Part shown: in pieces, positions 1-19,471 of the stretch
Layout of the letters: each line of letters starts with the position of its first letter
Numbering within the stretch: position 1 is the first letter of the stretch
Virus record (IMG/VR): IMGVR_UViG_3300025478_000017
Coordinates: 1-24,799 of that record
Length of the DNA: 24,799 nucleotides
Strand: one strand, 5' to 3'
Source of the DNA: a virus
Translations under genes and position numbers: made by a program
Notes under the pieces: generated by a model
What the model saw: only the letters and a program-made list of their open reading frames with translations
The model's database searches: none
Told to the model about the DNA's origin: nothing

Positions 1-303
1 AGTTGTGCCACCTGTAATAGTCTTAGGGAATCTAGTCTTAACGTCTGCTATGTGAGCATCCCAAGTACCGTCTGTTTGCATACCGAACTGTTCACCTGTA
101 GAGGCATAACCATCTACACCAGTTCTTAGTGCTACGTAATCAGGTTCGATAACATCAGCACCTTCTACGATAGTTAAGCCATTGACTTTAACGTCTTGTA
201 GGAACTGTCGGTAATCTCTGTTGCCTTCAGCCTGTGGGATAGAAGCATTATCAGATAATCTTGTTATTGAATACGAATCTTCAAACTTGTTTAGTTTATA
301 CAT
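1..303 (-). CDS. Small phage tail-associated protein, partial (C-terminus outside window)
   Basis: An ATG at 303-301 opens a frame of 101 codons that runs off the left edge without a stop. A clear AGGAGA Shine-Dalgarno site precedes it. The start lies 12 bases after the stop of the upstream fibre gene, so it belongs to the same operon. The protein begins MYKLNKFEDSYSITRLSDNA and continues with IPQAEGNRDYRQFLQDV around residues 22-38. Near residues 70-95 it has EQFGMQTDGTWDAHIADVK followed by TRFPK. The pattern 'IPxAxGNxDYxxFLxxV', then a Q/DGT segment and 'VKxRFPK', is common in small uncharacterised proteins near the ends of phage fibre clusters. From memory these are structural or fibre-associated, but no function is established that I can name. 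The reading frame is certain; the role is inference. Confidence 0.8.
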   Translation of the reverse strand, partial: MYKLNKFEDSYSITRLSDNASIPQAEGNRDYRQFLQDVKVNGLTIVEGADVIEPDYVALRTGVDGYASTGEQFGMQTDGTWDAHIADVKTRFPKTITGGTT

Positions 304-1452: not shown

Positions 1453-1797
1453 TTAAGTGATTTCCATAATTGATAACACTGCATCTAATGCAGAAGCCGT
1501 ATCACTCTGGATTTTAATAATGTCCCCTGCCTCAAGATTAATCTTGTTGCCTGACATCATCTCTACAGATGAGCCAGAAGGTAATGGGATGTTTCTAATG
1601 AAGTACACATCGTCTGCGTTCTCTCCTGTGGTAGAAGCTGTCACAATCTGTGCACTAGCTGTTACTGAAGCTCCTAAGATATTAGCTACTGTTAGCCCGA
1701 TAACTACCGTAGTGGTACTTGCAGGTACTGTGTAGACCGTAGTAAGCGCCGTGCCTACTGCTGCCTTTGTTTTTAATTTAAATGTATTTGTTGCCAT
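1453..1797 (-). CDS. Small beta-rich phage virion protein
   Basis: 114 residues, mostly Thr, Ala, Val and Ser, with alternating hydrophobic strands and no signal peptide. The layout is YTVPASTTTVVIGLTVAN near residues 22-39, then NIPLPSGSSVEMMSGNKINL near 69-88, then EAGDIIKIQSDTASALD and a terminal SIMEIT. This 'TVPa-ttt-viGl-aN ... PlPsGss-e ... L-aGD-i-v-s ... Silei' plan recurs in small proteins of phage tail and fibre clusters and is compatible with a compact beta-sandwich. A precise role (fibre cap, decoration or adaptor) cannot be read from the sequence. It sits between two fibre genes with a 10-base gap upstream and a 15-base gap downstream, and has a good AGGAGA site, so it is probably made in proportion with them. 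Confidence 0.75.
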   Translation of the reverse strand: MATNTFKLKTKAAVGTALTTVYTVPASTTTVVIGLTVANILGASVTASAQIVTASTTGENADDVYFIRNIPLPSGSSVEMMSGNKINLEAGDIIKIQSDTASALDAVLSIMEIT

Positions 1798-1807
1798 TTA
1801 TATTCTC

Positions 1808-3280
1808 CTATCCTAATGCAATTGCCATAGCGACGGCTTCTGCCGTCTTGCTATCTAGCATTGTCTGTAAATTAACCACCTCTGAAATTGAGTGAGTAGC
1901 TGGGTGTGTGTAGTTAGTGGCACTTTCTTCAATATTGTCTAATTTCGTCTGCAATGTAGTTGTGAAGTTCTTTTGCGTTAATCCATTGTCGCCCACTGAA
2001 TAAGTTGTATCAGTGTAGTTGCCAGCATGTAAGTTTGTTGCGCCTTGGTCTGCTGTCCAATCAATATGCTCATTAGCCACAAAGTCACTTAAACCATCAT
2101 GAGTCACTGATACTGCGCCTGTATCCCCATTAACACTTGATACTGCATCAGTAGGAGTTGCTAGCAACGTGTAGTCAGCCATAGTTCCTGCTGTACCCCC
2201 GTTATGGCAGTAAGTCTTATTCTCATCAGAGCGAACAACAATATCACCTTCCTGAGCCGTTAAGGCTAGTTGAGTTACTTGATTAGTCGCTGTCTGTACT
2301 GATGTTAAAGCTAAAGGGCTTGCTGAAAAAACAGTGCCTGCTAGTGTAAGACCTGTGCCTGCGGTATATGTCGTGTTAGTATTTGTATCAGTTGAAGATA
2401 TTGTGCCGTCACCAGCGATAGTCACATTAGTTCCCGCTGTTAAAGCAGAAACAACATTAGTTGTGTCTGTCACATCAGCGCTTGCCTCAACACCATCAAG
2501 CTTAGTTTTAAGCGTGGTAGTGAAATTCTTTTGAGTCAATCCGTTATCACCAACCGAATAAGTAGTATCAGTTGAACTAACCGTACCCCCCGCTGAAATT
2601 GCAACATTAGTGCCTGCTGTCAATGAAGCTACAACATTAGTTGTGTCCGTCACATCAGCGCTATCTTCAATACCTGATAACTTAGTCTGTTCAGCATCAC
2701 TGAATTCATTAGTATCTGTATTAGACTCGTAAGCTGTTTTAATCTCACTGGCAGACTGGTCAGCTGTAGCACTATCCTCAATATTCCCTAACTTAGTCTT
2801 TTCAGCGCTAGTGAAGCTCTTCTCCGATAACTCACCATCTTGTACAGAATAAGTTGTGTTATTATCAGGTATGGTAACTACATCTGTTGACCCATCTCCT
2901 CTCGTAAGAGTGATTGTATGGTCACTAATCGTCATTGCATCCGTTGAAGAGCTTAAAGACTGATTAGACGTTTTATTTGTTTTAGTACCTAGAGCTGTAG
3001 TAACAGTTGAAGCATAAGAAGCATCATCATTAATTGCTTCTGCCAGCTCATTTAGAGTATCTAAGGCTCCAGGAGCTCCTCCTACTAAGTCTGATATCTT
3101 CGTATCTATTGCAGACTCTGAAATAGTAAGAGTAGGTAAATTATCCCAAGGGGCAATACCGTCACCTATTTTTAGTATACTATTGCTAGTATCTTGTCCT
3201 ATCTCTCCTTGAGAGAGTATCGGATTTACAGAAGCCCAATTTGCTGCTGTGTCTCTTCTAAATTGAATTTTTGCTGCCAT
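1808..3280 (-). CDS. Repetitive tail fibre / stalk protein
   Basis: 490 residues. The N-terminus (IQFRRDTAANWASVNPILSQ, then GEIGQDTSNSILKIGDG) is a virion-attachment-like motif shared in outline with the two fibres upstream. The middle is repetitive. The stalk unit 'F-T/S-x3-x-x-KL-x-x-I/V-E-x-SA' occurs four times (for example FTSAEKTKLGNIEDSA and FSDAEQTKLSGIEDSA). The unit DVTDTTNVV...LTAGTNV...SSTDT occurs twice, and a TTYSVGDNGLTQKNF block occurs twice. Later segments include AQEGDIVVRSDENKTYCHNG and SSVNGDTGAVSVTHDGLSDF, both familiar from phage fibres. The end carries NYTHPATH and a short helix to residue 490. The composition suits a long trimeric fibre shaft rather than an enzyme. 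The start overlaps the stop of the upstream gene by one base, and its Shine-Dalgarno site lies in that gene's last codons. It ends in TAG, unlike most neighbours. Confidence 0.83.
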   Translation of the reverse strand: MAAKIQFRRDTAANWASVNPILSQGEIGQDTSNSILKIGDGIAPWDNLPTLTISESAIDTKISDLVGGAPGALDTLNELAEAINDDASYASTVTTALGTKTNKTSNQSLSSSTDAMTISDHTITLTRGDGSTDVVTIPDNNTTYSVQDGELSEKSFTSAEKTKLGNIEDSATADQSASEIKTAYESNTDTNEFSDAEQTKLSGIEDSADVTDTTNVVASLTAGTNVAISAGGTVSSTDTTYSVGDNGLTQKNFTTTLKTKLDGVEASADVTDTTNVVSALTAGTNVTIAGDGTISSTDTNTNTTYTAGTGLTLAGTVFSASPLALTSVQTATNQVTQLALTAQEGDIVVRSDENKTYCHNGGTAGTMADYTLLATPTDAVSSVNGDTGAVSVTHDGLSDFVANEHIDWTADQGATNLHAGNYTDTTYSVGDNGLTQKNFTTTLQTKLDNIEESATNYTHPATHSISEVVNLQTMLDSKTAEAVAMAIALG

Positions 3281-4710
3281 TATGCGGCGCCTCCATCATA
3301 TTGTAAGTCGCTTGAAGTGAAAACTGTACTAGCAGCACCTCCGTCTAAGTTTATATCTATAAGTGTAATAGGGCCGAAGCTAACTATAATTATATCATCC
3401 CCTACCGCAGCTGCTTCTACCAAAGTTATAGAAGTGCCATTGTCCGCTGTATAATCCGCTTTAGGTAATCGGAACCCGTTCAAATATACAGCTTCTTTGT
3501 CTATAGCGTAGTCTGCCGTAAACACGGTCTGCCCAGCAGTAGCCACAAAGTCTGTTTGAGTAAGTACTGCGTTACTTCCGGAGTATACCTCGTTCACTAT
3601 AATGGAAATAACGTCCCCGTCAGTAGTAGTAATCCCTACTAAAGATACTGTAGTGCCTAAGGTAGCCGTGAAATCTTCATCTGCTAGCCTAAGTCCATTG
3701 AAGAACACTGCTGTTACGGTGCTTGCGCCATAAGGTACACCAAAGCTTGTTTGCCCTGAAGTAGTTGAGTCTAGTATAAACTCGTGTTGAGTGGATACGG
3801 AGGATGAAGTATCCCCACCACCTCCTCCAGATACTGGGAACCACTGAGAAACTCCGGCAGAGTCTTGAATATATTTATATAGTAAAGAGTCGTCGGTATC
3901 CCACCACTCATCTCCTAAAGTAGGGTTCGCTGGTTGAGAAGTACTAAAGCTATTAGTATGCCCGTCCTCTAGACCTATGATTAATTGCTTTGGAGTAGTG
4001 CTACTGTCGGTAGTAATAACAACGTTATTACCTGCCACAATTTGTAGACTTTCTTCTCCTGAAGGAGATAGTGTAGTTTGTCCAGCAATAAGCAGGTCTT
4101 TCCAATGAGAACCTAAAGATACCTTAACGGCTCCACCTGTTAAATCTGTGACATTAAAGCCAGTTCCATCGTCAAATCGTATCTCGGATACATCAGTTAT
4201 TACATTAGTACCACTAACATCTTTGACCGTTAATGTCGATGGAAGATTTTGCCAAGAAGTTGTAGTACCATTTGTTGATAAAAATTTACCACTATTAGAT
4301 GACTGTGCGGGAAGTCCTCCACCACTGGTAGCAAAAGTATGCCCTACATGTTCTGATATAGTGTCTGCAACAAATGTCTTGTTTGCAGCGTCGTATGAAA
4401 TAGTAACATCATGAAAGTGGCTAGCAGCAGTACTAGAACGTACTGCTATAGTAGTTCCGTCCTTTATTAAATTGTAAGCTTGTTGTCCTGTAATTGACAC
4501 AGAATGAACGTGCCCGTCAAAATTAGTTAGCTGGAATACTTCTCCAATACTAATTTCAGATATACTAGGGGTTACTCCGTCTGTTTGATGGATAAATATT
4601 TTTCCATCATGCGTATTGAGCCCTATCTCCCCCAGCTCTAATTGAGTTGTAGAAGGTATATTGTGTTGAACGGCAGATCTAATGTGCTTAATCAGATTTT
4701 GTCTTGCCAT
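3280..4710 (-). CDS. Modular tail fibre protein with paired HxH module and two tandem NG-type repeats
   Basis: 476 residues, first gene of the promoter-proximal fibre unit. Residues 20-50 carry the fibre N-terminal motif LELGEIGLNTHDGKIFI. Residues 66-113 are a paired His-x-His module (H67/H69 and H98/H100) that aligns with one in the L-like protein. Residues 258-292 hold QPANPTLGDEWWDTDDSLLY, the 'P-x-x-GD-x-W-x-DT' motif of many phage fibres. A Gly5 hinge at 295-299 is followed by two related modules at about 318-378 and 390-447. Each has an FNGLRL or LNGFRL strand, a D-[FY]-TA turn and a GD-x-I strand. The C-terminus has two DGG motifs (456-458 and 472-474), ending YDGGAA. It probably forms a trimeric fibre or adaptor. 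AGGAG lies 6 bases before the ATG. Receptor binding is inferred; metal binding by the His pairs is only a hypothesis. Confidence 0.83.
   Translation of the reverse strand: MARQNLIKHIRSAVQHNIPSTTQLELGEIGLNTHDGKIFIHQTDGVTPSISEISIGEVFQLTNFDGHVHSVSITGQQAYNLIKDGTTIAVRSSTAASHFHDVTISYDAANKTFVADTISEHVGHTFATSGGGLPAQSSNSGKFLSTNGTTTSWQNLPSTLTVKDVSGTNVITDVSEIRFDDGTGFNVTDLTGGAVKVSLGSHWKDLLIAGQTTLSPSGEESLQIVAGNNVVITTDSSTTPKQLIIGLEDGHTNSFSTSQPANPTLGDEWWDTDDSLLYKYIQDSAGVSQWFPVSGGGGGDTSSSVSTQHEFILDSTTSGQTSFGVPYGASTVTAVFFNGLRLADEDFTATLGTTVSLVGITTTDGDVISIIVNEVYSGSNAVLTQTDFVATAGQTVFTADYAIDKEAVYLNGFRLPKADYTADNGTSITLVEAAAVGDDIIIVSFGPITLIDINLDGGAASTVFTSSDLQYDGGAA
4372..4515 (-). repeat. Paired His-x-His module, fibre copy
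   Basis: Codes for residues 66-113 of the 476-residue fibre. It begins GHVHSVSITGQQAYNLI, continues with a Thr/Ser strand and returns to SHFHDVTISYD before a Phe. The second copy in this window lies in the L-like protein at 18437-18586. The two match in order, spacing and His positions. Confidence 0.65.
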
Positions 4711-4716
4711 ATTGAG

Positions 4717-4740
4717 CTCCTATATACTGTATTCAACAGT
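4717..4740 (-). promoter_or_regulatory. Leader hairpin and Shine-Dalgarno site of the distal fibre operon
   Basis: On the minus strand ACTGT-TGAAT-ACAGT (4740-4726) forms a 5-bp stem with a 5-base loop. It is followed after a few bases by AGGAG (4721-4717), six bases before the ATG at 4710. The hairpin lies inside the predicted 5' untranslated leader of about 83 bases and could affect ribosome access or mRNA stability. It is short, so functional weight is modest. Confidence 0.4.
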
Positions 4741-4799
4741 TCCTTTTTCTAAGTTCTTTTGTAGCTGGGTAAGTTTTTACAGCTCTATTTTTAAAATCA

Positions 4800-4828
4800 A
4801 TTATACGCAACTTTGACCAAATTGTCAA
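4800..4828 (-). promoter_or_regulatory. Perfect-consensus sigma-70 promoter
   Basis: Read on the minus strand, TTGACA (4828-4823) is followed by exactly 17 bases and TATAAT (4805-4800). Both hexamers and the spacer are the bacterial housekeeping consensus. The expected start is near 4793, giving a leader of about 83 bases before the ATG at 4710. It lies directly downstream of a terminator and in non-coding AT-rich DNA. That context makes a chance match unlikely. It should drive the fibre genes from 4710 leftwards. Confidence 0.88.
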
Positions 4829-4853
4829 GAGTTATTTTTCTTTCGTCAGACGT

Positions 4854-4886
4854 AAAAAAGGGGGCAACGAATCCGCTGCCCCCTTT
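4854..4886 (-). terminator. Rho-independent terminator after the 893-residue fibre gene
   Basis: On the minus strand the stem AAAGGGGGCA (4886-4877) pairs with TGCCCCCTTT (4866-4857) across a 10-base loop. The T run continues to six Ts (4859-4854). It begins 11 bases after the stop codon at 4898-4900. The plus-strand reading lacks a proper T tract, so the terminator acts on leftward transcripts. It should end the long tail operon that starts at or beyond the right edge. Confidence 0.9.
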
Positions 4887-4897
4887 AAGGTCACTGG

Positions 4898-7579
4898 TTA
4901 GTAAGTCCCGCCGTCTAACGTATTAGACATCTCAAACTTGTACCCGCTAGCACCATCGGAAACTACTGTTAAGTGTTTTCCTAAGTGTGTAGCGTCCAAG
5001 GCTGAAGGTACTTCTCTTTCCCCAGATAGTGCTGCTTCGCCAATTGGGTTAACCCAAAGCTCTTCATACACCTTCTGCCATTGCTCAGATCTGTTAACCA
5101 TAGTGGTTTCACTATCGCCCAACTTAATCTCTTTAGCAGAAATTGGAGCTGTTTGAACTGTACTGATAGTAGCACCTTCAACATGGTCTGCACCAAATAT
5201 GAAGCTTTCTCTGCTATCGTCCCAACCCATGAAGCCCATTCGTGCTTGAGTATCAAAGTATGGGAATACAATTCCTAGATCATTAGTGGTAGCCGAAGTA
5301 GGAGTTTCATCTCCTCCAATACGGAAAGTAGCATCATCAATAGTAACCACGGTTGAGTTAACAGTAGTCATGTCGCCATTAACTGTTAAGTTGCCCCCAA
5401 TTACAGTGTTGCCCGCTACATCCAAATTACCTAAGTTATCTACTGATAATTTAGTAATACCTGAACCACCTGAAACCTTGAATAGATCAGGGTCTTTAAA
5501 GATGGTTTGGTTACTAAAGGCAGATGAGATATCGTCTGTAACTACTAGTACTGTACCCGAAGTTACAGAAGTAACCGTAGTTACTTCAGCACCAATCTTA
5601 ACAGACATACCTTCAGTAAGCCCATGAGTGCCTCCGAACGTCCAAGTCTTGTTACCTGCACCAGATGAAGTAGCAGTGTGTGCACTAGCAGGAACACTAA
5701 GATCACCTTTTGAGTATACAAGGTTATTGTCCGTAATAGTAGAACTATCTAGAACAACACTTGTAAGAGTACCGTCATTAATATCAACTTTATTAATATT
5801 AACTTCGCCCGCAGCAGATGCGTTAATATTGATATTACCAGAAATAGCTTCAATAGTATTACTACCATCGAATTCTAGATTACCAAAAGTAACTGCACCT
5901 CTTAAACGAGTCCAACCTTTAACATCAAAGTTAGGATCTGCTCTAGTTCCGCCTGTACCATGTACAATAACATCACCATTACCATTGACCTCAAATTCTA
6001 AACCACCCGCTTTGCGTAGTTGAATACCCGAGAATCCATCCAGAGTTAAAGCACCTGCTGTAGTCTTAATTTCAGTAGCTGCACTGAACGTTAAGTCCGT
6101 AGCTCCTAAATCTAAGGCCGTAGCTGAGTTTAACACAATAGAGTTGGCATCGATAGAAACAGTACCTGTCGCATCAATGTCTACACCACCTGCTGAATTA
6201 ACAGTAATGTTCTTACCTGCTGCATCATTATTTAAGTTAATACCGCCAGCTAAAGTTTTGAGCTCAATTGCTCCAACTCCAGTGCCTTGAGTATTCTCAA
6301 TAACAATTGTATCATCTGTACCGCCATTAGCCTGTAGGTTAATAGCGTTAGCACCATCTCGGTTAGAAGCTATCTTAACGCCACCAACATCTGATTGAAT
6401 GCTTACAGAAGTATCCCCTGTGCCTTGATTAGACAGGATAGAGATCGTTTCAGACGCACCACCATTCGCGTGCAGCTTAATAGCATCTGCAACGTTACCT
6501 GTAGAGTATAAGTTTACCCCACCAGCATCGGAAGATAGTTGAACCGAAGCGCTGCCACTTGTAGCGGAAGTACCTTGATCAGAGTGAACACGTATAGTAT
6601 CACTCGTACCACCATCCGTATGGATGTATACAGCGTCAGCTTGATTACCTGTTGAACTGATAGTTACACCACCAGCTACTGAGTCAACTTTTACTGAGTC
6701 TACACTAGTACCTTTCTGAGCCTGTACTAAAATAGTTCCAGAGGTACCACCGTTTTCAAGGATAGTAACAGCAGAGCCATTATTAGTAGAGGTTAGATCA
6801 ATAGTACCTAAAGCACTAACATCGATACCACCTTGTGAGGTAATATCAATTGCTTGTGAAGAAGTACCATTTGAATCGATCTTAACAGTTGCAGCACCAG
6901 TACTATTACTAGCTATTAGCTGAACAGCACCTGTGCCATTTTCACCACCATCTAGTATTACCTTACCACTTGTAGAATCTAAAGTAATAGTCCCAGCTGC
7001 CCCGTTGGCCGTTAAGGCTACGTTTGCTGCAGAAGTTACTGAGTAACCTGCATCGCCAGTACTAATACTAATTCCATTTCCTGTTCCAGTATTGCTAATA
7101 TAGTCAATATTAAGTAAACTAATCTTACTATTAACATCTTTCTTATCTAGTACAACTGTACCATTTAAGCTATAACCATACTTGGAATCTGTACCATAAG
7201 TAGCTCCTGTTCCATCATCGGAACGAACTACTAATTGATTTGTAGTATTTTCAGAATCATATACTACGAAATCGGTTCCAGAGGTGAATAAACTAACATC
7301 GTAACTGTTAGAGCTCCCCTCTGATTTAAAGCGCATCGCACGAGAATTACCACTAGCAGCGTCCGCAGTACCTATTAGGAAGTCCTGCAGAATTACGTTA
7401 GATGATTCATCAAGTTTAAAGAATTTACCTTGTCCGCCGAGTTCTGTTATGTTCCCGTTAGCTTTAGTAATATATAGAGTTTCATTTCCATCTGAATAAG
7501 ATAGTAAACCAAACTCCGTTGCGTTTGTACCCGGCGGGAGTAATCCCGTGGTACGTTTTATTTTTATTAAATTTGCCAT
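4898..7579 (-). CDS. Large repetitive tail fibre protein (probable beta-helical shaft)
   Basis: 893 residues. The N-terminus (NLIKIKRTTGLLPPGTNATE, then FGLLSYSDGNETLYIT) is a variant of the fibre attachment motif also seen in the 476- and 490-residue fibres. Residues about 190-600 are low-complexity strands in register. At least five diverged units of about 45-55 residues contain a 'GG-[VI]-x-[IL]' turn and a '[DN]GG-[TA]-[SD]-[DE]T' turn, as expected of a trimeric beta-helix. The later part contains GNLTVNGDMTTVNSTVVTID followed by an FRIGGDETP and DTQARMGFMGWDD segment, a block widespread in aquatic phage structural proteins. The protein ends TLDGGTY. The GAGGA ribosome site and a 60-base leader with two palindromes precede it, and a terminator follows. 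No enzymatic motif was seen. A role as structural fibre or receptor-contacting spike is inferred. Confidence 0.83.
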   Translation of the reverse strand: MANLIKIKRTTGLLPPGTNATEFGLLSYSDGNETLYITKANGNITELGGQGKFFKLDESSNVILQDFLIGTADAASGNSRAMRFKSEGSSNSYDVSLFTSGTDFVVYDSENTTNQLVVRSDDGTGATYGTDSKYGYSLNGTVVLDKKDVNSKISLLNIDYISNTGTGNGISISTGDAGYSVTSAANVALTANGAAGTITLDSTSGKVILDGGENGTGAVQLIASNSTGAATVKIDSNGTSSQAIDITSQGGIDVSALGTIDLTSTNNGSAVTILENGGTSGTILVQAQKGTSVDSVKVDSVAGGVTISSTGNQADAVYIHTDGGTSDTIRVHSDQGTSATSGSASVQLSSDAGGVNLYSTGNVADAIKLHANGGASETISILSNQGTGDTSVSIQSDVGGVKIASNRDGANAINLQANGGTDDTIVIENTQGTGVGAIELKTLAGGINLNNDAAGKNITVNSAGGVDIDATGTVSIDANSIVLNSATALDLGATDLTFSAATEIKTTAGALTLDGFSGIQLRKAGGLEFEVNGNGDVIVHGTGGTRADPNFDVKGWTRLRGAVTFGNLEFDGSNTIEAISGNININASAAGEVNINKVDINDGTLTSVVLDSSTITDNNLVYSKGDLSVPASAHTATSSGAGNKTWTFGGTHGLTEGMSVKIGAEVTTVTSVTSGTVLVVTDDISSAFSNQTIFKDPDLFKVSGGSGITKLSVDNLGNLDVAGNTVIGGNLTVNGDMTTVNSTVVTIDDATFRIGGDETPTSATTNDLGIVFPYFDTQARMGFMGWDDSRESFIFGADHVEGATISTVQTAPISAKEIKLGDSETTMVNRSEQWQKVYEELWVNPIGEAALSGEREVPSALDATHLGKHLTVVSDGASGYKFEMSNTLDGGTY
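6190..6850 (-). repeat. Tandem diverged repeats of about 45-55 codons inside the fibre gene
   Basis: The protein turns GGIDVS, GGVTIS, GGVNLY, GGVKIA, GGINLN and GGVDID are encoded near 6837, 6672, 6525, 6383, 6247 and 6190. The spacings are about 165, 147, 142, 136 and 57 bases. The linking segments share QGT and '[DN]GGTSDT'-type turns. The units are diverged in DNA and protein, so this is an old duplication in a structural shaft rather than a recent tandem expansion. Confidence 0.7.
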
Positions 7580-9845: not shown

Positions 9846-12800
9846 TTATTGTACTCCTCGTGCGTTCCAAGTTAATTTTCCTTCAAAAGATTTTATAGCC
9901 CCAGTAAGGGTGCCATAGTCACTTTTATCTAATATGTACACATAAAAGAAGGATGGTGTAGGCACATCTTCGAAATCATGTATAGTGAACCTAGAAGGTA
10001 CTACTGACCCATCTAGTTCTGTTGTGTAGGCTGTATTTAAGTAATTAATATCCTTAAAATCTTTAAGGAAAAAGACCCTAAATACCTTCATACCCTCTTT
10101 TGTGCTGTGCCACTCGCCTCCTTGGGTGTTACAAATCACTTCGTTATTATCTGGTTGGCGAGAAATACCTGCGCCATCTGTATAATAAAAAGGAGCTCCG
10201 TCCTCTCCACTGCCGTAGACGTTACACAGCCCCGAATTTGTGTCAACAGTCTCGGACCCAGAGTCCGTGACCATCTTAAGGCTTAGCTTAAGCTTGAACT
10301 CGTCCAAGGCCATTAAGTCGTTATTACCCCCGTCAGTATTAAATACCGTATGAGCTTTCACATACCTAAAAGTGTGGAGTGCCATAGTGGAGGTACCCAC
10401 TACTTTAGTCCATCCTGTCTCATTTGTTAGTACTCCAGCATCGGGATCAGTATTACTATAATATAAAGTAGTCGAAGGGGTCACCGCCCCGTGTAGTACC
10501 CTAGTATTCATAGCTGCTTGAATAGAGCTCGGGTCTAGTGTAACACCGAAATCCCACTTCTGCCAGAAACTAGCAGATGAGGTACCTGGTTCTAGGTAGA
10601 ACGGGTACCCTGCAGAAACCTGCGACTGAGGACTAGTAAAACTATTATTAACAAAATGCTCTCTCCATGTCTCCACCGTATTAACCGGTAGGAACGCGGA
10701 AGTAGCTCCTTTATGTATACTAGTAGTTTCAATAGTAGTTACTTCTGTAGGGTAACTAGCGGGATTATCTTCATCTAAGGTAGAGTTTCTGTTTTCAATA
10801 AGTATGAAGTCAGGCGGCTCAGATACGATAGCTACTGTACTTAGAGCAGGAGACATATTACCTGCGCTATCTACGGACCTAATCCAATACTTAAACGTCC
10901 CTCCTATAGTTTCCATATGAGATATAAATAAGCCTGCCGTAGTAGACACAGGCTCTAAAACGCCCCATTCAGCCTCGGTAGACGAGCTACAAGAAGGTGA
11001 ACCATCTGGGCACCTTTTTACTTCATAGCTGTTAATATCTAGTTTTGCTACATTAGAGGCACTTGGCCATCTAAGTAGTACGTTGTTATCCACTACTTTA
11101 ATATTTAGAGTGGCAGGAGCATCCGGTACAGGTACATCCACAGCTATATCTGTAGCAACCCCGTAGTTGCCTGCGGAATCTTTAGCTACAATAGTAAAGG
11201 TTACAGGACTACCCGAATGCCAAGTAACAGGAGTAGAATATGAAGTAGAGTACGTAGTCTTTAGGACAGCCCCCGTACTGTCTCTAATCTCATATAAGTC
11301 TACAGGTAAGTAGCCTCCGGCGGAGTCCCCCGCATGTACAGGAGCTGTCCAACTTAATAGAGTCATTATACCAATAAAAGAATTAGATAAGCTCTGTACT
11401 TGTCCCAGTCTCTCTACTTCTGCTAATACCCATCCCGTTCCCTCTGCTTGCACAGAGTGTACGGGCTCCTCTGAGTAGTTACCTGCAGAGTCTATCGCTC
11501 GGACAAAGAATCTTGTATCATCAATATTATTTGCAGGGTCATAAGGTCTCCAGTCCACTCGTAATGTGTGGTCTAGTGTCAAAGCCCTGGTTATAGCCGA
11601 GTTAGCCGTGTTGTCTAGTCTCTTGGCCCAGGTTGCTCCACTTCTTAGTTCGTACTCTACAATATCTAAATCTGCGGAAGGGGCAGACCATTTAATGGTA
11701 GTATTCCCTCCTGAGATACTATAAGTTACTCCATAAGGTATTGCAGGATTATTAATAGTAATATCTATACTATGGTTGGTACCTTTATTTCCTGCGGAAT
11801 CTATTGAGGTTACCCAGTACCTTCTAAACTGTCCTCCACCCCAGGTTACCTTTTCAGAATACCTAGTAGAAGACTTACGAGGGGATAGTATAGTGGCAGA
11901 ACCATACGTGTCTCCCTTTTTAATTTCCCAGAATTTAACAGGAAGTAAGTAATCTACATTATTATCGTAGTCCGCCTCCCCTGCCGTCTGTACTCTCCAA
12001 TTCGTTACTTGATCAGGCCCTACTAAAGTGTAGGCCAAATCCTTTATATCTACAGGGTTACGTATCTCTACAGAGTGTTTCTGCCAAGGGCTAAGGTTCC
12101 CAGCACTATCTATTGCTCTAACCCAGAAGTCTCTAGAGGGCTCTCCCGAAGAAGGGCCCCAAGTTACGTTCTCGGAATGAGTAGTAGTCTTAATAAGACC
12201 AACTAAGGTGGCAGAGTCTCCTGTAAGGCCTCCTTGCCTGATTTCATAGTTGGAAATAGGTAAAGACCCTATGGTAGGGCTTACCCAAGAAAGAACTGCC
12301 GCACCCGTCGAGTCCAAAGTATGAACTACAGGATTAGTGGACCAGTCTGGGCTCTCCACTAAAATGTCTATACTGGCTGGTGCGCCATAATTTTCTGCCA
12401 TATCTTCGGGAGCTACCCAGTACTTTCTAGTACCTCCCCAGCCTACATTAATGCTAATGCTGGGCGCCCCTAGGTTGTGTATTCGGGCGGCGTAATTAGA
12501 TGACCAAGTATCTCCATATCTAATGTCATATTCATTAATTTTATAAAAGCTATTTACTCCAGGTACCCAACTAATAACAACATTTGTACCTACGAAAGAG
12601 TAGGTTAAAGAAGTAGCAGGGTCTGGAACTGTGACTTCAATAGAAGCTTCTGCATCATACGTAGAGTACACCCCACTTGTATCTTTTGCCCTCAATAGGA
12701 AGTTATGTGTTCCCGCTTTTAAGTACCAACCCCCCTCTGCTCCAAATGATAGAGAGTTTTCTTTTAGTAATACGGTATTAGAGGCGTCTCCCCAAGTACT

Positions 12801-15800
12801 CCCTTCTTGTATCTCATAGTACCTTAGGTCTAAATCCTTAATAGGCTCCCAGTCCAGTCTAGTACCAGTACTTTTATCTGTGGTTATAGTGAACTTAGAA
12901 GAGTCTGTAGTCCACACGTTGCCGTCTGACACCCATTGGCCTACACAGGCGTTAGATACCCAACTATGGTTTAAATCACCACACCTAGTTTCGTCTGAAA
13001 CGATGGCTCCGGTTGCAGGGTCTATAGGACTTTGTGCAGTACACAGGGCCTCACTATTTAGTATAGAAGAGCCATCTAACGTACTACATCTACCTTGGCC
13101 CTCACAATCAGACTGTGTTCTAGCGTACGTTAATCCACTACAATACTTGGTAACGGATGAAGGCGGTTTAGCTAGTCCTAGTACCGTTTTTGATACCTGC
13201 ACATACATAGAAACGTTATTAGTTATAATACTCTGAGCTCTTACTTTTACCTCGTAGGTACCTTTAGGAGCGTCTAATACTTCTGTGTTTAAAAATTCGG
13301 TGTCTGGCAAGTCTACCCAAGTACCTTTATTAACACGATACTTTACAGAGTACAAGCGTATATAAGGGTAATCTGTTGGAGCCTGCCATTGAATAATAAC
13401 TTTATTACGTACTTGACCATCTGACCCTACGTACGAAGTCTCGTACACGTCTAGGTCCGCTGGAGGCGGTGTAGCTACTAGAATATTAGGAACATTGCTA
13501 ATATTTCTCTCGTCTAGCTCACTAAAGTCTAGTCCCTCTTCTATTATGCGGTACTTATCCTCATGGTACTCCATGGCAAGTACTTCATACTCATTCTTTT
13601 TTGACTCTTTAACCCCGACAGTGCGCCATACCTGCGCGTCTACTACACCTGTCTCTTCTAACAGCCACATATAATCTGCTTTAGGTTCGTTAGTCAAAGA
13701 ATGATGGTACTCTATACTATCAGGAGCCGAGGCAAAAGACGTGACATCTACATGCACCTCATGGTCTGCAACTATATTAGTAATAGTGGCGGTCGCTCCT
13801 GTAGTTTTATTAGTTACAGTTCGTCCCAGGTACTTACTAGAAAAAGACATCTTGCTATCGTATATTGAGAAAGGTGTCCCAGGTACTCCTGTACCCCCCT
13901 CAGACGCACTAATTTCGGTATCTAAGTCTATGTCTTCAGTAACTAAACTGTCTATAGTTACAGGGTAATTCTCTACGAATAAATAAGGAGCCCACTGGCC
14001 TCCGTCACTTATACAAACTTCCTTAGCTTCAAGACCTGCTACAGGAGCGGTAGGGTAATAAAGCTCACCTGCGTGCGGGTGAGCCACCCCGGGAGAAGAC
14101 TCCTGAGGCTTTAAACACGCTTTATCTGTGTGTATTACATTTAATGTATAGTTTGCTCCGGGGAGCATCTGTACAGCACTATCTAATATAATATTTGTTT
14201 TGGTGGAGCCCGACTTAATTCGCCCTCCGTATCTATTGCCAGAGCGAGTAGGGTCCTGTACTTTTATTAGGTCTCCCGGACGTAGTACTGCAGCTTCTAA
14301 GCCAGACTTGAAACTTAACGTCTCTGTCTCTAGAGTATCGGTTAGTAGAGTCCAAGTACCTATTCGGTGTGCTTGCCCCCTAGAAGTACACCCAAAAGAT
14401 GTAATGTCTGTCTTACGTATACCGTATCTATCTACTCCTTCCCTGTCCTCAACATACTCTACTTTTCTTCTATAGAAGTCGTCAGGGTCGTTCCAGTTCA
14501 CCAAAGCCACGGTCTTTCGTGCCTTCTGTGAAGTACCTGAGTAAGAGAACTCTCCTCCTAATACGTTAGCGGAGGTAAATAATTGAGTAGGCTCTTTTGG
14601 AGAATCTTGTACAGGCACTAATTGCCCATTAGCCCAGTAAGATAGCCCTCTAAATGCGAAGGCTAAATCTTGTATTACTTTTATAGCCTCTTGTTGGTCC
14701 TGTATGTACACGTTACACGCAAACCTAGGCTCCAACAAGGTAGCACCTGCAGCGTCTTTAAATCCGGATTTTACACCTACAAAGTCTCCTGCATCATCGA
14801 CTGCGTCGCAGTATCTTGCAATCTGGTATAGGGCCCATTTATCAATTTGCGTACCTCTAATGTACTCCCCGAGTCCGTAACGTTTATTGGTAATTATGTC
14901 ATAGTAGATCCACGCAGGGTTGCTGGTCCACATTACATTATTGAAAGTGCCGTCCCAGTGCCCCGAATATAGGTTGTCCCCCGCTGCTAAAGTGTCTGGA
15001 TCATATCCGTGGTAGTTTGTAGGAACCTTACACTTTATGCCTCGGATATGGTAAGCTCTCTTAGGTATACTACTGAACTGCCTAGCATTAATTTGAGTAG
15101 CTATCAAAGCAGTATGCGGGTATCTTAATTTGTTATCAATAATACGGGTAAAACTTTCCCAGTAAATAGTATCATTTAAAGCACTATCACTAGCTTCGTC
15201 CGTTAGCCTAAGTATCTTTATAGTAACTTCAGTGCTATAAATCGTCTTATCTAAGTTAATTCTGTGTTGTCTAGTATACTTTGACGTGGTCTTTCCATCG
15301 AAAGAAGCGGATACAACTTTATGCCAGTTACTATCATTATTATACATAAGGTAGATTTCATAGTCTACCTTTGCACCGTGTATATCGCCATTTTCCTTAT
15401 CTTGAGTCGTCAACTGATTACAAGAGATAGTTACTGCTATAGCATCTAGGTCTCCATTATATATAGTAATAGGAGGAGCGGTTCCCACTCCTTTTTTAAT
15501 TTCAGCTTGCACAGCTTCCTGACCCCTAATACTGCCCGCATCCGGAATCACCTCTTGATCAGTTGTTCCCATAACTGAGTATGTCTTAACATTATCAAAG
15601 TTATAAGTACCGTTAGTATTCATCAGAGGGGTCTCATTATAGAAGATACTCTCATGGCCGGCTACTAGACCTACTATTTCTCCCTCAGAAACTGCGTCTA
15701 AAACCTGGGCGTACTGTACAGAATGGAGAGTATCTGGGTCCTCAACTGCCTGTCGAGGAGACCCTCCGCCTTTTCCTCCACCACCTGAGCCTCTTAATAC

Positions 15801-15815
15801 GTTATTACTGGCCAT
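9846..15815 (-). CDS. J: Central tail protein / host-specificity protein J-like
   Basis: 1989 residues, against 1132 in lambda J. The N-terminal half matches the J family: a Gly-rich start, then VLDAVSEGEIVGL near residue 38, GHWDGTF near 287, NPAWIYYDIITNKRYGLGEY near 300, DKWALYQIARYCD near 327 and EPRFACNVYI near 365. These parts form the tube-closing hub. An Fn3-like domain covers about 780-890. A Cys-rich insert of about 70 residues follows (13155-12930). Seven diverged Fn3-like repeats run to about 1660, and a C-terminal receptor-side region with a jelly-roll-like part ends NARGVQ. J contacts the outer-membrane receptor and closes the tail. The start is set by GGAGGA five bases upstream, inside the overlapping end of I. 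The large C-terminal expansion is unusual for lambda but common in environmental phages. Receptor identity is not visible. Confidence 0.95.
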   Translation of the reverse strand: MASNNVLRGSGGGGKGGGSPRQAVEDPDTLHSVQYAQVLDAVSEGEIVGLVAGHESIFYNETPLMNTNGTYNFDNVKTYSVMGTTDQEVIPDAGSIRGQEAVQAEIKKGVGTAPPITIYNGDLDAIAVTISCNQLTTQDKENGDIHGAKVDYEIYLMYNNDSNWHKVVSASFDGKTTSKYTRQHRINLDKTIYSTEVTIKILRLTDEASDSALNDTIYWESFTRIIDNKLRYPHTALIATQINARQFSSIPKRAYHIRGIKCKVPTNYHGYDPDTLAAGDNLYSGHWDGTFNNVMWTSNPAWIYYDIITNKRYGLGEYIRGTQIDKWALYQIARYCDAVDDAGDFVGVKSGFKDAAGATLLEPRFACNVYIQDQQEAIKVIQDLAFAFRGLSYWANGQLVPVQDSPKEPTQLFTSANVLGGEFSYSGTSQKARKTVALVNWNDPDDFYRRKVEYVEDREGVDRYGIRKTDITSFGCTSRGQAHRIGTWTLLTDTLETETLSFKSGLEAAVLRPGDLIKVQDPTRSGNRYGGRIKSGSTKTNIILDSAVQMLPGANYTLNVIHTDKACLKPQESSPGVAHPHAGELYYPTAPVAGLEAKEVCISDGGQWAPYLFVENYPVTIDSLVTEDIDLDTEISASEGGTGVPGTPFSIYDSKMSFSSKYLGRTVTNKTTGATATITNIVADHEVHVDVTSFASAPDSIEYHHSLTNEPKADYMWLLEETGVVDAQVWRTVGVKESKKNEYEVLAMEYHEDKYRIIEEGLDFSELDERNISNVPNILVATPPPADLDVYETSYVGSDGQVRNKVIIQWQAPTDYPYIRLYSVKYRVNKGTWVDLPDTEFLNTEVLDAPKGTYEVKVRAQSIITNNVSMYVQVSKTVLGLAKPPSSVTKYCSGLTYARTQSDCEGQGRCSTLDGSSILNSEALCTAQSPIDPATGAIVSDETRCGDLNHSWVSNACVGQWVSDGNVWTTDSSKFTITTDKSTGTRLDWEPIKDLDLRYYEIQEGSTWGDASNTVLLKENSLSFGAEGGWYLKAGTHNFLLRAKDTSGVYSTYDAEASIEVTVPDPATSLTYSFVGTNVVISWVPGVNSFYKINEYDIRYGDTWSSNYAARIHNLGAPSISINVGWGGTRKYWVAPEDMAENYGAPASIDILVESPDWSTNPVVHTLDSTGAAVLSWVSPTIGSLPISNYEIRQGGLTGDSATLVGLIKTTTHSENVTWGPSSGEPSRDFWVRAIDSAGNLSPWQKHSVEIRNPVDIKDLAYTLVGPDQVTNWRVQTAGEADYDNNVDYLLPVKFWEIKKGDTYGSATILSPRKSSTRYSEKVTWGGGQFRRYWVTSIDSAGNKGTNHSIDITINNPAIPYGVTYSISGGNTTIKWSAPSADLDIVEYELRSGATWAKRLDNTANSAITRALTLDHTLRVDWRPYDPANNIDDTRFFVRAIDSAGNYSEEPVHSVQAEGTGWVLAEVERLGQVQSLSNSFIGIMTLLSWTAPVHAGDSAGGYLPVDLYEIRDSTGAVLKTTYSTSYSTPVTWHSGSPVTFTIVAKDSAGNYGVATDIAVDVPVPDAPATLNIKVVDNNVLLRWPSASNVAKLDINSYEVKRCPDGSPSCSSSTEAEWGVLEPVSTTAGLFISHMETIGGTFKYWIRSVDSAGNMSPALSTVAIVSEPPDFILIENRNSTLDEDNPASYPTEVTTIETTSIHKGATSAFLPVNTVETWREHFVNNSFTSPQSQVSAGYPFYLEPGTSSASFWQKWDFGVTLDPSSIQAAMNTRVLHGAVTPSTTLYYSNTDPDAGVLTNETGWTKVVGTSTMALHTFRYVKAHTVFNTDGGNNDLMALDEFKLKLSLKMVTDSGSETVDTNSGLCNVYGSGEDGAPFYYTDGAGISRQPDNNEVICNTQGGEWHSTKEGMKVFRVFFLKDFKDINYLNTAYTTELDGSVVPSRFTIHDFEDVPTPSFFYVYILDKSDYGTLTGAIKSFEGKLTWNARGVQ
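10825..12900 (-). repeat. Seven diverged fibronectin-III-like repeats in J
   Basis: Each unit of about 92-106 residues has an inner 'Y-E-[IL]-[RKQ]-x-G' strand and ends with '[FW]-[WV]-x-x-x-DSAGN' or a relative. The DSAGN positions lie near residues 1231, 1337, 1440, 1545 and 1648. Degenerate forms (DTSGV and DMAEN) are near 1045 and 1137. The regular spacing supports domain duplication followed by divergence. Such runs act as spacers or as weak polysaccharide contacts in phage tail proteins. Confidence 0.8.
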
Positions 15816-16449
15816 CTGTTTCCTCCGTAGTTACTCCGGCGCTAATAAGAGCGCCACCAACTATTAATTCTCCGTAACACAAAGGTATTGGTAGTCCTTG
15901 TGCAGAAGTATTTACTGGGCCATTAAAGTTGTAAGACTGCCCGTTGTTTACCTCACTAGTCTGAGGCTTGTTTGGCTTAGGGGCCAGCATCTGCGCTATC
16001 CCTGACATCATTAAACTCATTCCCGCTTGAAGAGCAAAAGAGGACAAAGATACCGCAGTACTTGCCCCAACACCAAAGGTACCCATGCCGACTGCCCAGG
16101 TACTAGCAAATGTTGATCCAGTGCCCACGCCAGTAGCTAGCCCTGCCAAATAAGGTGCAAATACAATAAGAGCCCCTAGTAGTATCATGCCTACTCCAGA
16201 ACTCTTAGAGCCGCTAATAATAGGTATAAACTTTAGGTCTCTCGAACCTAGAGGATCCATTAAGTGCTGCTGCCCTAAGTATTCTTCTGCAGAGGTAACG
16301 TGGTACTCTCTGTCCATAATGTACTCGTAAAACCCCGGCATATTGGCCTCTATAGCCTTTGCTGCTTCGTGGGGGTTTGACACGTCTAACGTCCACTCCC
16401 TCCCGAACTTCTCTCCTAAGTCCCCGTATAATGTTACTTTTCTTAACAT
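15805..16449 (-). CDS. I: Tail assembly protein I-like (tail tip)
   Basis: 214 residues. Residues 1-80 look like a beta-grasp (ubiquitin/ThiS-like) domain: a first strand RKVTLYGDLGEKFG, a helix HEAAKAIEANMPGF, and a closing strand DLKFIPIISG. Residues 85-155 are a Gly/Ala/Ser-rich hydrophobic stretch (MILLGALIVFAPYLAGLATG and on) that may cross or insert into a membrane or pack in the tail tip. The C-terminus NTSAQGLPIPLCYGELIVGG followed by ALISAGV is the conserved I-family tail. The gene overlaps K by seven bases upstream and J by eleven bases downstream. In lambda, I is needed for tail-tip assembly. The neighbouring JAMM-bearing K and this ubiquitin-like fold form a known phage pairing. 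Its final residues are encoded by the bases that supply the strong ribosome site of J. Confidence 0.92.
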   Translation of the reverse strand: MLRKVTLYGDLGEKFGREWTLDVSNPHEAAKAIEANMPGFYEYIMDREYHVTSAEEYLGQQHLMDPLGSRDLKFIPIISGSKSSGVGMILLGALIVFAPYLAGLATGVGTGSTFASTWAVGMGTFGVGASTAVSLSSFALQAGMSLMMSGIAQMLAPKPNKPQTSEVNNGQSYNFNGPVNTSAQGLPIPLCYGELIVGGALISAGVTTEETDGQ

Positions 16450-17171
16450 AATGATTTGTGCCTTAATACATGTGTGGTGTTCTTTTGGTATGCCTCTCCA
16501 TATATATCTTTTGTAGAGAGCCTCCCCATTAAATGGTGTAGTATCATATTATTACCTAAGTAGATAGCTAAGTGGTTAGAAACATTAGATAGTACCTTCA
16601 TTAATATTACATCATGTTTCTCAATCTTTGTGTGGTCTTTAACCTCTATAAAATCCCCCTCAGTCCAGCTATCCCAGTTGTCTGCATAGTAGTCTTTGCC
16701 TGTTGCCCACCAATCGTACTCAGAAGGGAACATCTTGTACTTAACACCGAATTCTTGCTCATAGTAATCTATGAATAAGGTTTGGCAATCTAACACCCCG
16801 TAAGCAAATACTCGCCCTGTTAAAGGGGCAGAGTAGGCTTCCGGGAGTAACTTCGACCACTCTTTTGCGGGCCAAGAGATTATGTGCCAAGGGAGTCCTG
16901 ACCTACTGCAGGAAACCTTGTCTGCCTCACTAGGGGTGGAGGACGCATTTGGGTGGCTATGTATAACAGCCAGTATTTCTCCTAAGTCTTCAGCTTTTGC
17001 GTAATCATAAGGGTCTAGTACAAAGTCCTGCTCCTCATGGCCTTCTGCTATATTTTTACACTTAAAGTACTTTTGCTTACCCTTAATATTTAGCAGCAGA
17101 CCACAACACTCTTGGGGAAACGCGTACTCAGCATGCTCTTCTATAGCCTCTTTGGTTTTATCTGATATCAT
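16443..17171 (-). CDS. K: Tail tip protein K-like: JAMM metalloprotease plus NlpC/P60 peptidase
   Basis: 242 residues with two peptidase domains, the usual K architecture and length. The N-terminal domain has the intact JAMM signature: E21 in PQECCGLLL, then H71-x-H73-x7-S81-x2-D84 (HSHPNASSTPSEAD), which would bind zinc. The C-terminal domain has the NlpC/P60 nucleophile C129 in LDCQTLFIDYYEQEFG. The general base is probably H200 in NHLAIYLGNNMI, with H212 or H213 as the likely third residue. The NlpC/P60 part may cut peptidoglycan during DNA entry, and the JAMM part may process a tail protein; both roles are inferred from the families. The start overlaps the stop of L as ATGA, with a weak ribosome site, so translational coupling is likely. 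The end overlaps the start of I. No domain appears damaged. Confidence 0.95.
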   Translation of the reverse strand: MISDKTKEAIEEHAEYAFPQECCGLLLNIKGKQKYFKCKNIAEGHEEQDFVLDPYDYAKAEDLGEILAVIHSHPNASSTPSEADKVSCSRSGLPWHIISWPAKEWSKLLPEAYSAPLTGRVFAYGVLDCQTLFIDYYEQEFGVKYKMFPSEYDWWATGKDYYADNWDSWTEGDFIEVKDHTKIEKHDVILMKVLSNVSNHLAIYLGNNMILHHLMGRLSTKDIYGEAYQKNTTHVLRHKSLC

Positions 17172-19471
17172 CTTCGTAGTCCCAGCCCTACTCCAGGGAA
17201 GCCCCCGTAAGGTAGTATAGCCTTGTTTAAGTTCCAGCAGCTTCCTGTGGAACTATTCCAGTAGTGGTTTTCAAGCACACAAGCTGCTTCAGTTGTTGCT
17301 GAAACATAAGGTTCTGCAAACCTCAGCTCACAGCTTGTAAGCTTCTTAGCGCAGTAGTCCTTTGTTGCATCAGAAGTAGGCTCATCATCTTTAGTATAGT
17401 ACTGGGTGCCCGTGTAACCACACTCTCCTCCTCTATACTTCCATAAGCAAGTATTCTGTATAATCTCTCTTTTAGGTAGTTTAATTCCTTCCACGTCCCA
17501 AGCAGGGGCTAACTCGAATTCTATTAGTATCTTATTTTCTGCCACCTTGCGGTCTATAAAGTATATATCATCTTCGAAAAACGCCTCAGGGTCTGAAGTA
17601 TTGATAACTAGATTATTATAGTACGTTAAAGTGTGCCCGTCTGTGCCCGAGATACTACGAGTACGTAAGTCACCTCTAGCCCAGGTCTGACTTACTTGGA
17701 AGTTATCAACTAGTATTTCATCATTAGATCCTCCCGCGCCTCCAGATGCAAATATCTTGAAACGGGTTCTAGAAGCTCTGCTCCTATCTGCCAAATATAA
17801 GGTTGTACTAAAATTTAAGAATCCGGAAGACGTAGGTGAAGTGTATATGTACCCCGGCATAGTATACCCTGCTGCTACGTACAAATCAGACACTAAAGCA
17901 TACGATGCCTCTGTAGTCCAGGTGCCGTCTCCATTATCTGTCTCTACAACTAACTTCTGAGTACTGCCTGTAACTATTCTGTAATCGAACTCTATGCTAT
18001 ACTCTCTATTAGCAAAAGTGTTAACGTCAATAAAGGCCCAATCTAATATGCCCGAGGCTTCCACTCTTAAACACGTATCGTGGGAGGTGCTGCTTGAGTC
18101 GTATACTGAGGTGAGTGTTGTACCGGCACTCCCGTACCATGAAGTGGTTGCACCTGTAAAGTTGCTATTAACCCCCTCGACTAGCTTCAACTCTTCCGAG
18201 CCTTCATACATATATTCTAGTACTATATTATGGGCATGAGCAGTAGGACGAGGGAGTAATACAAGAACAGCATCCAAACGGTATCCTGCTCCCCCACTTA
18301 TAGTAGTATAACTTTTCAAAGCCCCTTCAGGGGTTAGTTCTATGGAGTTAAATGACGCAGGTACTAAACTACTAGGGTAGTACGCGTAGTGAGGGACTTC
18401 TCCCGCCATAGGGGTATGATTAGTAGTAAATAATATAGTAAATAGTTTGGTAACGTTACTCCACTGCACGGATACATTATGAGAATGGCCCACAGAACTA
18501 CTAGTTACGGCGGATATAGTTAGCCCAGGGGTTTCTAATAAGGAGTATAGCTCTTCGTCTGTAAGTAGTACCTCGTGTGCGTGAGGGACGGAGGCGGGCC
18601 CTACTACTGCTACCCCGTCTGATAGCAAAGGAGGCTGTGCAACCTCTAAATAGACTCCGTCAGCATAATTATACCCCATACCTTGGGTAGCTTCTGCATT
18701 ACTAATTTCAAGTATAGACCCCGTACCATCAGTCTGAAGAATAGGCTGGGACACTAAAGAGATGCTGTTAGTACTTGCGGTTGTGGTAATTTGGGCACCA
18801 TCGCCTAAAGCACATACTTCAGCATTAGTAAGGGTTACTTTATGCGAGTGGTTATGTGTAGCCTCTGGCTCAAGTCTTAACCCCTCAGGGGCGGCTATCT
18901 CTTTCCACTCAGTATTATGGTTTACATACCAAGTACCCCCAGCAGCCGCACACGTAGCACAGTCGTACTCCCCCCAGCTATTCCCAAAGCTAAGGCAGTC
19001 AGACTTGCTATCTTGGTAGGCTGTATCAGTACAAGTCCCTGCCACTACAGTATTATCCGCTAGTTTACAGAAGTTATCTAAGAACCTGCCATAGGTTCTT
19101 TTTCTGTTGACCTGTACACCCACTAAATCATTATAATCTCTAGTTAGCCCCGATATCACCCCTCTAGCATCTCCAGACGCCGTAGTGGTGATATTGGCTA
19201 AACTCATACTTGGTCTAGGTATTTGTTTAGACCCTGTGGCCTCAAAACCCTTAACCTCTATCGGATAAGGGTAGTATACGTCTCCTTGCCATATGATTTC
19301 TCTGTCGATATTATTTGTACCAGCGTGAAATCGCAGTATATCTGTATTCCCTATAGAAGGTACAGAGCCTACATCCACAGTAAATAGCTCAATTAAAGCA
19401 TCCGTATTAAGGGACGACGATATTTGAGATATAGTGGACCTCTCCGCGATTTGTACTAAGGATTTACTCAT
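17168..19471 (-). CDS. L: Minor tail protein L-like with very large insertion
   Basis: 767 residues, against about 230 in lambda L. The N-terminus (residues 22-135, for example ELFTVDVGSV and FEATGSKQIPRPSMSLANIT) and C-terminus (LPKREIIQNTCLWKYRGGEC, then GYTG, then LPYGGFPG) are clear L parts. The four cysteines C675, C684, C707 and C714 match the iron-sulfur-binding cysteines of the family. Between about 135 and 630 lies an insertion: a Cys-rich part (135-183), His-x-His motifs at 206-210, 297-299, 329-331 and 412-414, and a jelly-roll-like module at 430-598 opening NSNFTGATTSWYGS. A small extra Cys/Trp element (729-746) sits just before LPYGGFPG. The gene overlaps M by four bases and K by four. 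L forms part of the tail tip. The insertion is probably exposed and may bind glycan or metal; that is inference. Confidence 0.93.
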   Translation of the reverse strand: MSKSLVQIAERSTISQISSSLNTDALIELFTVDVGSVPSIGNTDILRFHAGTNNIDREIIWQGDVYYPYPIEVKGFEATGSKQIPRPSMSLANITTTASGDARGVISGLTRDYNDLVGVQVNRKRTYGRFLDNFCKLADNTVVAGTCTDTAYQDSKSDCLSFGNSWGEYDCATCAAAGGTWYVNHNTEWKEIAAPEGLRLEPEATHNHSHKVTLTNAEVCALGDGAQITTTASTNSISLVSQPILQTDGTGSILEISNAEATQGMGYNYADGVYLEVAQPPLLSDGVAVVGPASVPHAHEVLLTDEELYSLLETPGLTISAVTSSSVGHSHNVSVQWSNVTKLFTILFTTNHTPMAGEVPHYAYYPSSLVPASFNSIELTPEGALKSYTTISGGAGYRLDAVLVLLPRPTAHAHNIVLEYMYEGSEELKLVEGVNSNFTGATTSWYGSAGTTLTSVYDSSSTSHDTCLRVEASGILDWAFIDVNTFANREYSIEFDYRIVTGSTQKLVVETDNGDGTWTTEASYALVSDLYVAAGYTMPGYIYTSPTSSGFLNFSTTLYLADRSRASRTRFKIFASGGAGGSNDEILVDNFQVSQTWARGDLRTRSISGTDGHTLTYYNNLVINTSDPEAFFEDDIYFIDRKVAENKILIEFELAPAWDVEGIKLPKREIIQNTCLWKYRGGECGYTGTQYYTKDDEPTSDATKDYCAKKLTSCELRFAEPYVSATTEAACVLENHYWNSSTGSCWNLNKAILPYGGFPGVGLGLRR
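18437..18586 (-). repeat. Paired His-x-His module, L copy
   Basis: Codes for residues 296-345 of the L-like protein. It begins PHAHEVLLTDEELYSLL, passes a Thr/Ser strand and returns to GHSHNVSVQWSN before a Phe. The fibre copy is at 4372-4515. Half-copies lie nearby in the same protein at 18797-18859 (HNHSHKVTLTNAEVCAL) and 18212-18244 (AHAHNIVLEY). Confidence 0.65.

Follow-up and report, generated by a model that had tools for sequence, protein, structure and literature searches.

A terminator-promoter pair as the probable boundary between two late transcription units in the tail-fibre region of a marine T5-like phage

In bacteriophage T5, the host sigma-70 RNA polymerase reads all promoter classes in every phase, late genes are preceded by strong sigma-70 promoters, and the discriminator of early promoters contains ATATT. 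Transcripts from PG25 and PJ5 appear at 30 min, i.e. late in vivo, and how the early-to-late switch operates with all promoters near the host consensus is treated as an unresolved question (PMC7472727). In the T5 genome, PG25 stands directly behind a terminator, with the pore/tape-measure gene on one side of the pair and the tail-tip and ltf genes on the other (AY543070, 92013-92113). Vibrio phage pVp-1 carries a similar pair, unannotated in its record (~100245-100319), in which TTGACT-16-TATAAT comes directly after a U-tract hairpin; the pair separates the gene for the pore-forming tail tip from the tail gene that follows, its promoter spacer is 16 nt long, and its position is as in T5 and not as in the DNA described here.

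The locus under study lies on the minus strand of a 24,799-nucleotide stretch of viral DNA (the window), in a 187-nt gap at 4711-4897 that is the largest of the window, the runner-up measuring 60 nt, about a third. Reading along the minus strand, an 893-aa gene (end 4898) is followed by the terminator, the promoter, an 80-nt leader and a 476-aa fibre gene (start 4710), as detailed in Table 1. The likeness to T5 PG25 consists in the minus strand, the intrinsic terminator followed by a sigma-70 promoter, and the parting of upstream tail genes from a distal tail/fibre operon. The T5 pair, however, stands directly behind the tape-measure/pore gene, whereas the window pair lies further downstream, between fibre genes: the gap behind the window's own tape-measure/pore gene is 3 nt, and the pair is found about 15 kb downstream. 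PG25 also differs in its -35 hexamer (TTGATA against TTGACA) and discriminator (ATTG against TGAT). Judged from these placements, the window pair is analogous in position to PG25, not orthologous. Since T5, pVp-1 and the early region of the related contig G004 (near 2350-2425) all have terminator-promoter pairs, the arrangement is, by sequence comparison, already known and ordinary in this phage family. The premise of the original prediction, that a host-type promoter ahead of tail fibres is unusual, is thereby not supported, T5 late genes likewise using sigma-70 (PMC7472727). The window would add a marine lineage to the phages in which, as in T5, late promoters are of the host sigma-70 type and tail/fibre units are insulated by terminators.

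Table 1. Predicted features around the terminator-promoter pair (window coordinates)
Feature	Position	Strand	Remarks
Intrinsic (Rho-independent) terminator	4854..4886 (core stem 4860-4883 plus U-tract)	-	Predicted end of upstream tail unit
A-rich upstream element AAGAAAAATAACTC, adjoining the -35	4829..4842	-	Matches consensus aAAAAtA.ttC (75 distinct promoters, marine T5-like contigs)
Sigma-70 promoter TTGACA-N17-TATAAT, spacer motif TTGGTCAAAGTT	4800..4828	-	12/12 match
Discriminator TGATTTTAAA, late-type	4790..4799	-	
5' untranslated leader with small hairpin ACTGTTGAATACAGT just ahead of the ribosome-binding site	4711..4793	-	
Last gene of upstream unit, 893 aa, fibre or virion structural protein	4898..7579	-	phrog_697, 8e-26
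First fibre gene of downstream unit, 476 aa; N-terminus conserved, C-terminal part exchanged	3280..4710	-	
Second fibre gene, 490 aa, Mtd_N-type N-terminus	1808..3280	-	
Small downstream gene, 114 aa, no assigned function	1453..1797	-	
Tail-fibre gene, 373 aa	316..1437	-	phrog_4492 tail fiber, 5e-41
Fifth gene of unit, at least 101 aa, cut by window end, no assigned function	1..303	-	

The terminator reads AAAGGGGGCAGCG-GATT-CGTTGCCCCCTTT TTT and comprises a 13-bp stem (10 of them GGGGGCAGCG, 8 G-C), a 4-nt loop and a U6 tail, with a fold of -26.2 kcal/mol (z -5.7); the GC-rich stem, short loop and U-tract that define intrinsic terminators are all present. The claimed terminator is thus real. 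A custom scan returns it as the sole strong terminator of the window; a generic terminator scan of the window did not list the hairpin, and an Rfam search gave no match. Across three sequences, each from its own lineage (the window, G002 and G005), the stem contains four compensatory pairs with both sides changed, and 95% of the cells of the stem alignment stay paired, against at most 72% in slid versions. Beyond the terminator lies the promoter, TTGACA-ATTTGGTCAAAGTTGCG-TATAAT, which matches the housekeeping consensus exactly, as had been proposed, and is the only 12/12 sigma-70 site in the window. The claimed order of terminator and then promoter holds on the minus strand only, where the terminator comes first (4886 to 4854) and the promoter 25 nt beyond. 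These features support a host-type sigma-70 promoter; termination and promoter activity at the pair are predicted from sequence, with a transcript start expected at about 4792-4793.

Both elements are carried by G002 and G005, where nearby identity is only ~62-80% in most bins, and the -35 and -10 hexamers are kept in both apart from one A-to-T change in G005. Because terminator and promoter are kept, with compensatory stem changes, amid 62-80% identical surroundings, the comparison, which covers three independent lineages at this exact locus, points to selection acting on both. Searches with the fibre N-terminus and with the C-terminus of the upstream gene yielded a single further sequence at the locus, a near-duplicate of G002. 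The proposed split into two transcription units is accordingly borne out at sequence level: a terminator that would close the upstream tail unit and a sigma-70 promoter that would open the distal-fibre unit are both kept in diverged relatives, which supports a separate fibre transcription unit. The "at least five" distal fibre genes first proposed correspond to five co-directional ORFs 3' of the promoter, four of them of 476, 490, 114 and 373 aa and the last, truncated by the window end, of at least 101 aa; the 114-aa and truncated ORFs carry no fibre assignment. Within the leader, the hairpin ACTGTTGAATACAGT (window 4711-4760) recurs in both G002 and G005, the latter showing one compensatory change. 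A regulatory leader RNA was considered and rejected, as the whole-leader fold is not significant (z -0.86) and only the small hairpin is conserved.

By gene content, the window is part of a marine T5-like phage with a Demerecviridae-type genome. It is 99.7-99.9% identical to G001 and G003 across most of its length, and to G003 specifically at 99.7-99.8% over 3813-24799. The late half contains TerS, TerL, portal, protease-capsid and tail tube/tail genes in T5-type order, with protease and capsid fused. The early half, known from G004 and linked to the window and the other late-half contigs only via the end overlap of two metagenome contigs (G003 and G004, in which gene lengths and order match and fibre sequence is shared), encodes D2, D3, ligA, ligB, D5, D6, primase, polymerase and D10-D15 in nearly T5 order, so that a collinear D2-D15 replication block with a T5-type DNA polymerase is present. 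A phmmer search found no homolog of T5.026. The fused gene (G001 39449-41590, L065) encodes homologs of the T5 prohead protease and major capsid protein as a single 713-aa product. In the window, a lambda-like tail tip with L, NlpC/P60-JAB and J domains (9849-19471) lies beside T5-like packaging and replication genes, forming a chimaeric tail.

The fibre promoter belongs to a phage-wide family. A search of the viral collection for the extended motif TTGACNNNTTGGNNAAANTTNNGTATAAT matched 40 stretches, most of them T5-like early regions. The 16 contigs reached through it hold up to 16 TTGACW-17-TATAAT sites each and no match to the reversed control. From 75 distinct sites the consensus aAAAAtA.ttC TTGACA t.ttggttaAa.Tt..G TATAAT At is obtained, and the window site agrees with it as far as the -10. 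The window site also has the sequence form of T5-like sigma-70 promoters, TTGNNN-17-TATAAT with an A-tract, and the early sites of the same phage occupy T5-matching gene positions, preceding homologs of D3, ligB and T5.125 at the places of T5 PN26, PK28a and P31A/B. The T5 early promoters PN25, PN26, PH207 and PK28 resemble it in their upstream A-tract, sigma-70 hexamers and conserved -10, but mostly have TTGCTW at -35 and an ATATT-like discriminator where the window has TTGACA and TGATTTT. A copied host promoter was also considered; it is disfavoured by the motif's 13 matches in the genome collection, which are scattered and follow no consistent lineage, in a collection where marine hosts may be under-represented.

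Taken together, the site very probably marks where one late transcription unit ends and the next begins in a virulent marine T5-like phage, with the fibre unit gated by the early-to-late switch. RNA polymerase coming from the lambda-J-like tip gene and the first fibre genes would stop at the 4854-4886 terminator, and a second host sigma-70 RNA polymerase would start about 60 nt further, near 4792, and read the distal fibre genes. This start would use a T5-type promoter composed of an A-tract, TTGACA-17-TATAAT and a late-type discriminator. The pair may thereby keep fibre dosage independent of the upstream operon, a role suggested by analogy with T5, whose PG25 pair presumably acts as such an insulator. 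Late timing would be gated by a phage early-to-late switch acting on the host polymerase and not by a different sigma factor. In T5, the factors of this switch are D5 and RNA-polymerase-binding proteins.

The downstream fibre genes have been exchanged between phages. G002 (L072) is 99-100% identical to the window from ~4611 to ~2750, about 1.9 kb of fibre genes, and 62-80% identical elsewhere; because such near-identity lies inside a diverged background, this stretch is, by sequence, a recent exchange between diverged phages. G003 departs from the window at 3813 and G001 at 1271. All four junctions (~4611, 3813, 2750 and 1271) fall inside fibre genes, so the pair appears to belong to the stable upstream backbone and would drive exchangeable fibres. 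That G002's near-identical stretch starts close behind the promoter might suggest that the terminator-promoter region itself is the exchange point through which a fibre cassette enters as a whole. This is unlikely, however, since near-identity starts only ~100 nt into the first fibre gene, in its conserved N-terminus, the other departures lie further away still, at 3813 and 1271, and the homology used is likely that N-terminus and not the intergenic region. Of the cassette proposal, the swapping of near-identical fibre blocks therefore stands, whereas junctions at the promoter do not; similarly, comparison of the 187-base region in relatives reveals the anticipated conserved pair with variable downstream genes, but a pair that travels with the backbone. 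The 490-aa fibre (1808-3280) has an Mtd_N domain, as in the N-terminus of the Bordetella phage tropism determinant, and a reverse transcriptase for a diversity-generating system, sought on that account, was not found in six related contigs.

Fibre expression that is late rather than constitutive is the most likely reading, because the window site is without the TATAAT-AT discriminator of the early type and because PG25 of T5 fires late in vivo. AT directly follows TATAAT at 21 of the 24 early sites but at 2 of the 9 late ones (Fisher p 0.0008), a tendency and not a rule, as the sites were hand-picked and are not independent; the fibre promoter begins with TG or GG after the -10, and the window discriminator, TGATTTT, is without the AT typical of most early-region sites. 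The promoter thus precedes late genes and is free of an early ATATT-type discriminator, which places it with the T5 late class as a statistical tendency only, T5 PG25, itself late, being a counter-example that begins ATTG. Early or constitutive expression, as raised in the original prediction, would have the consensus promoter active once DNA enters the cell and fibres made throughout infection. Its core is indeed as near consensus as those of the same phage's early promoters, with which it shares spacer and A-tract, but T5 late promoters are likewise strong sigma-70 sites whose activity in vivo is nonetheless late (PMC7472727), the discriminator differs from the early type, and the site sits in the late half of the genome, all of which makes this alternative distinctly improbable. 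A more specific proposal on the side of late expression, put forward tentatively, is that early and late promoters of marine T5-like phages have a common core (A-tract, TTGACA, TTGGTNAAA spacer, TATAAT), with differences mainly in the few bases after the -10, that the discriminator alone may set temporal class on the host sigma-70 polymerase, and that the fibre promoter represents a naturally occurring late form of the early promoter. The dozens of promoters in these phages with the same core and different discriminators offer a direct comparative test of the T5 switch question.

A fibre cassette that behaves as a moron or is expressed in a lysogen, which would export the fibres or use them at its surface, would fit a unit that has its own terminator and promoter and variable downstream genes. 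Nevertheless, a search of seven related contigs, all fragments, gave no integrase or resolvase of the tyrosine or serine recombinase type, the downstream genes encode virion fibres, and conservation of the pair goes with the backbone and not with the variable genes; the suggestion goes unsupported and is very improbable. To our knowledge, the known relatives of T5 are virulent, and a virulent life style is inferred here as well. That the promoter, known here from its letters, is an inactive chance match to the consensus is scarcely credible, given 0.018 such 12/12 sites expected per window (dinucleotide-based, spacers 16-18, both strands), hexamers conserved in diverged lineages, and a phage-wide promoter family whose reversed control yields no or almost no matches.

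Two further gene arrangements occur in the related contigs. In G004 (L070), a minus-strand cluster at 28276-33325 includes two radical-SAM-like proteins, and in G001 (L065) a PhoH-like gene and a collagen-like/fibre-like gene (48732-49442 and 49446-50801) lie between the terminase subunit genes.
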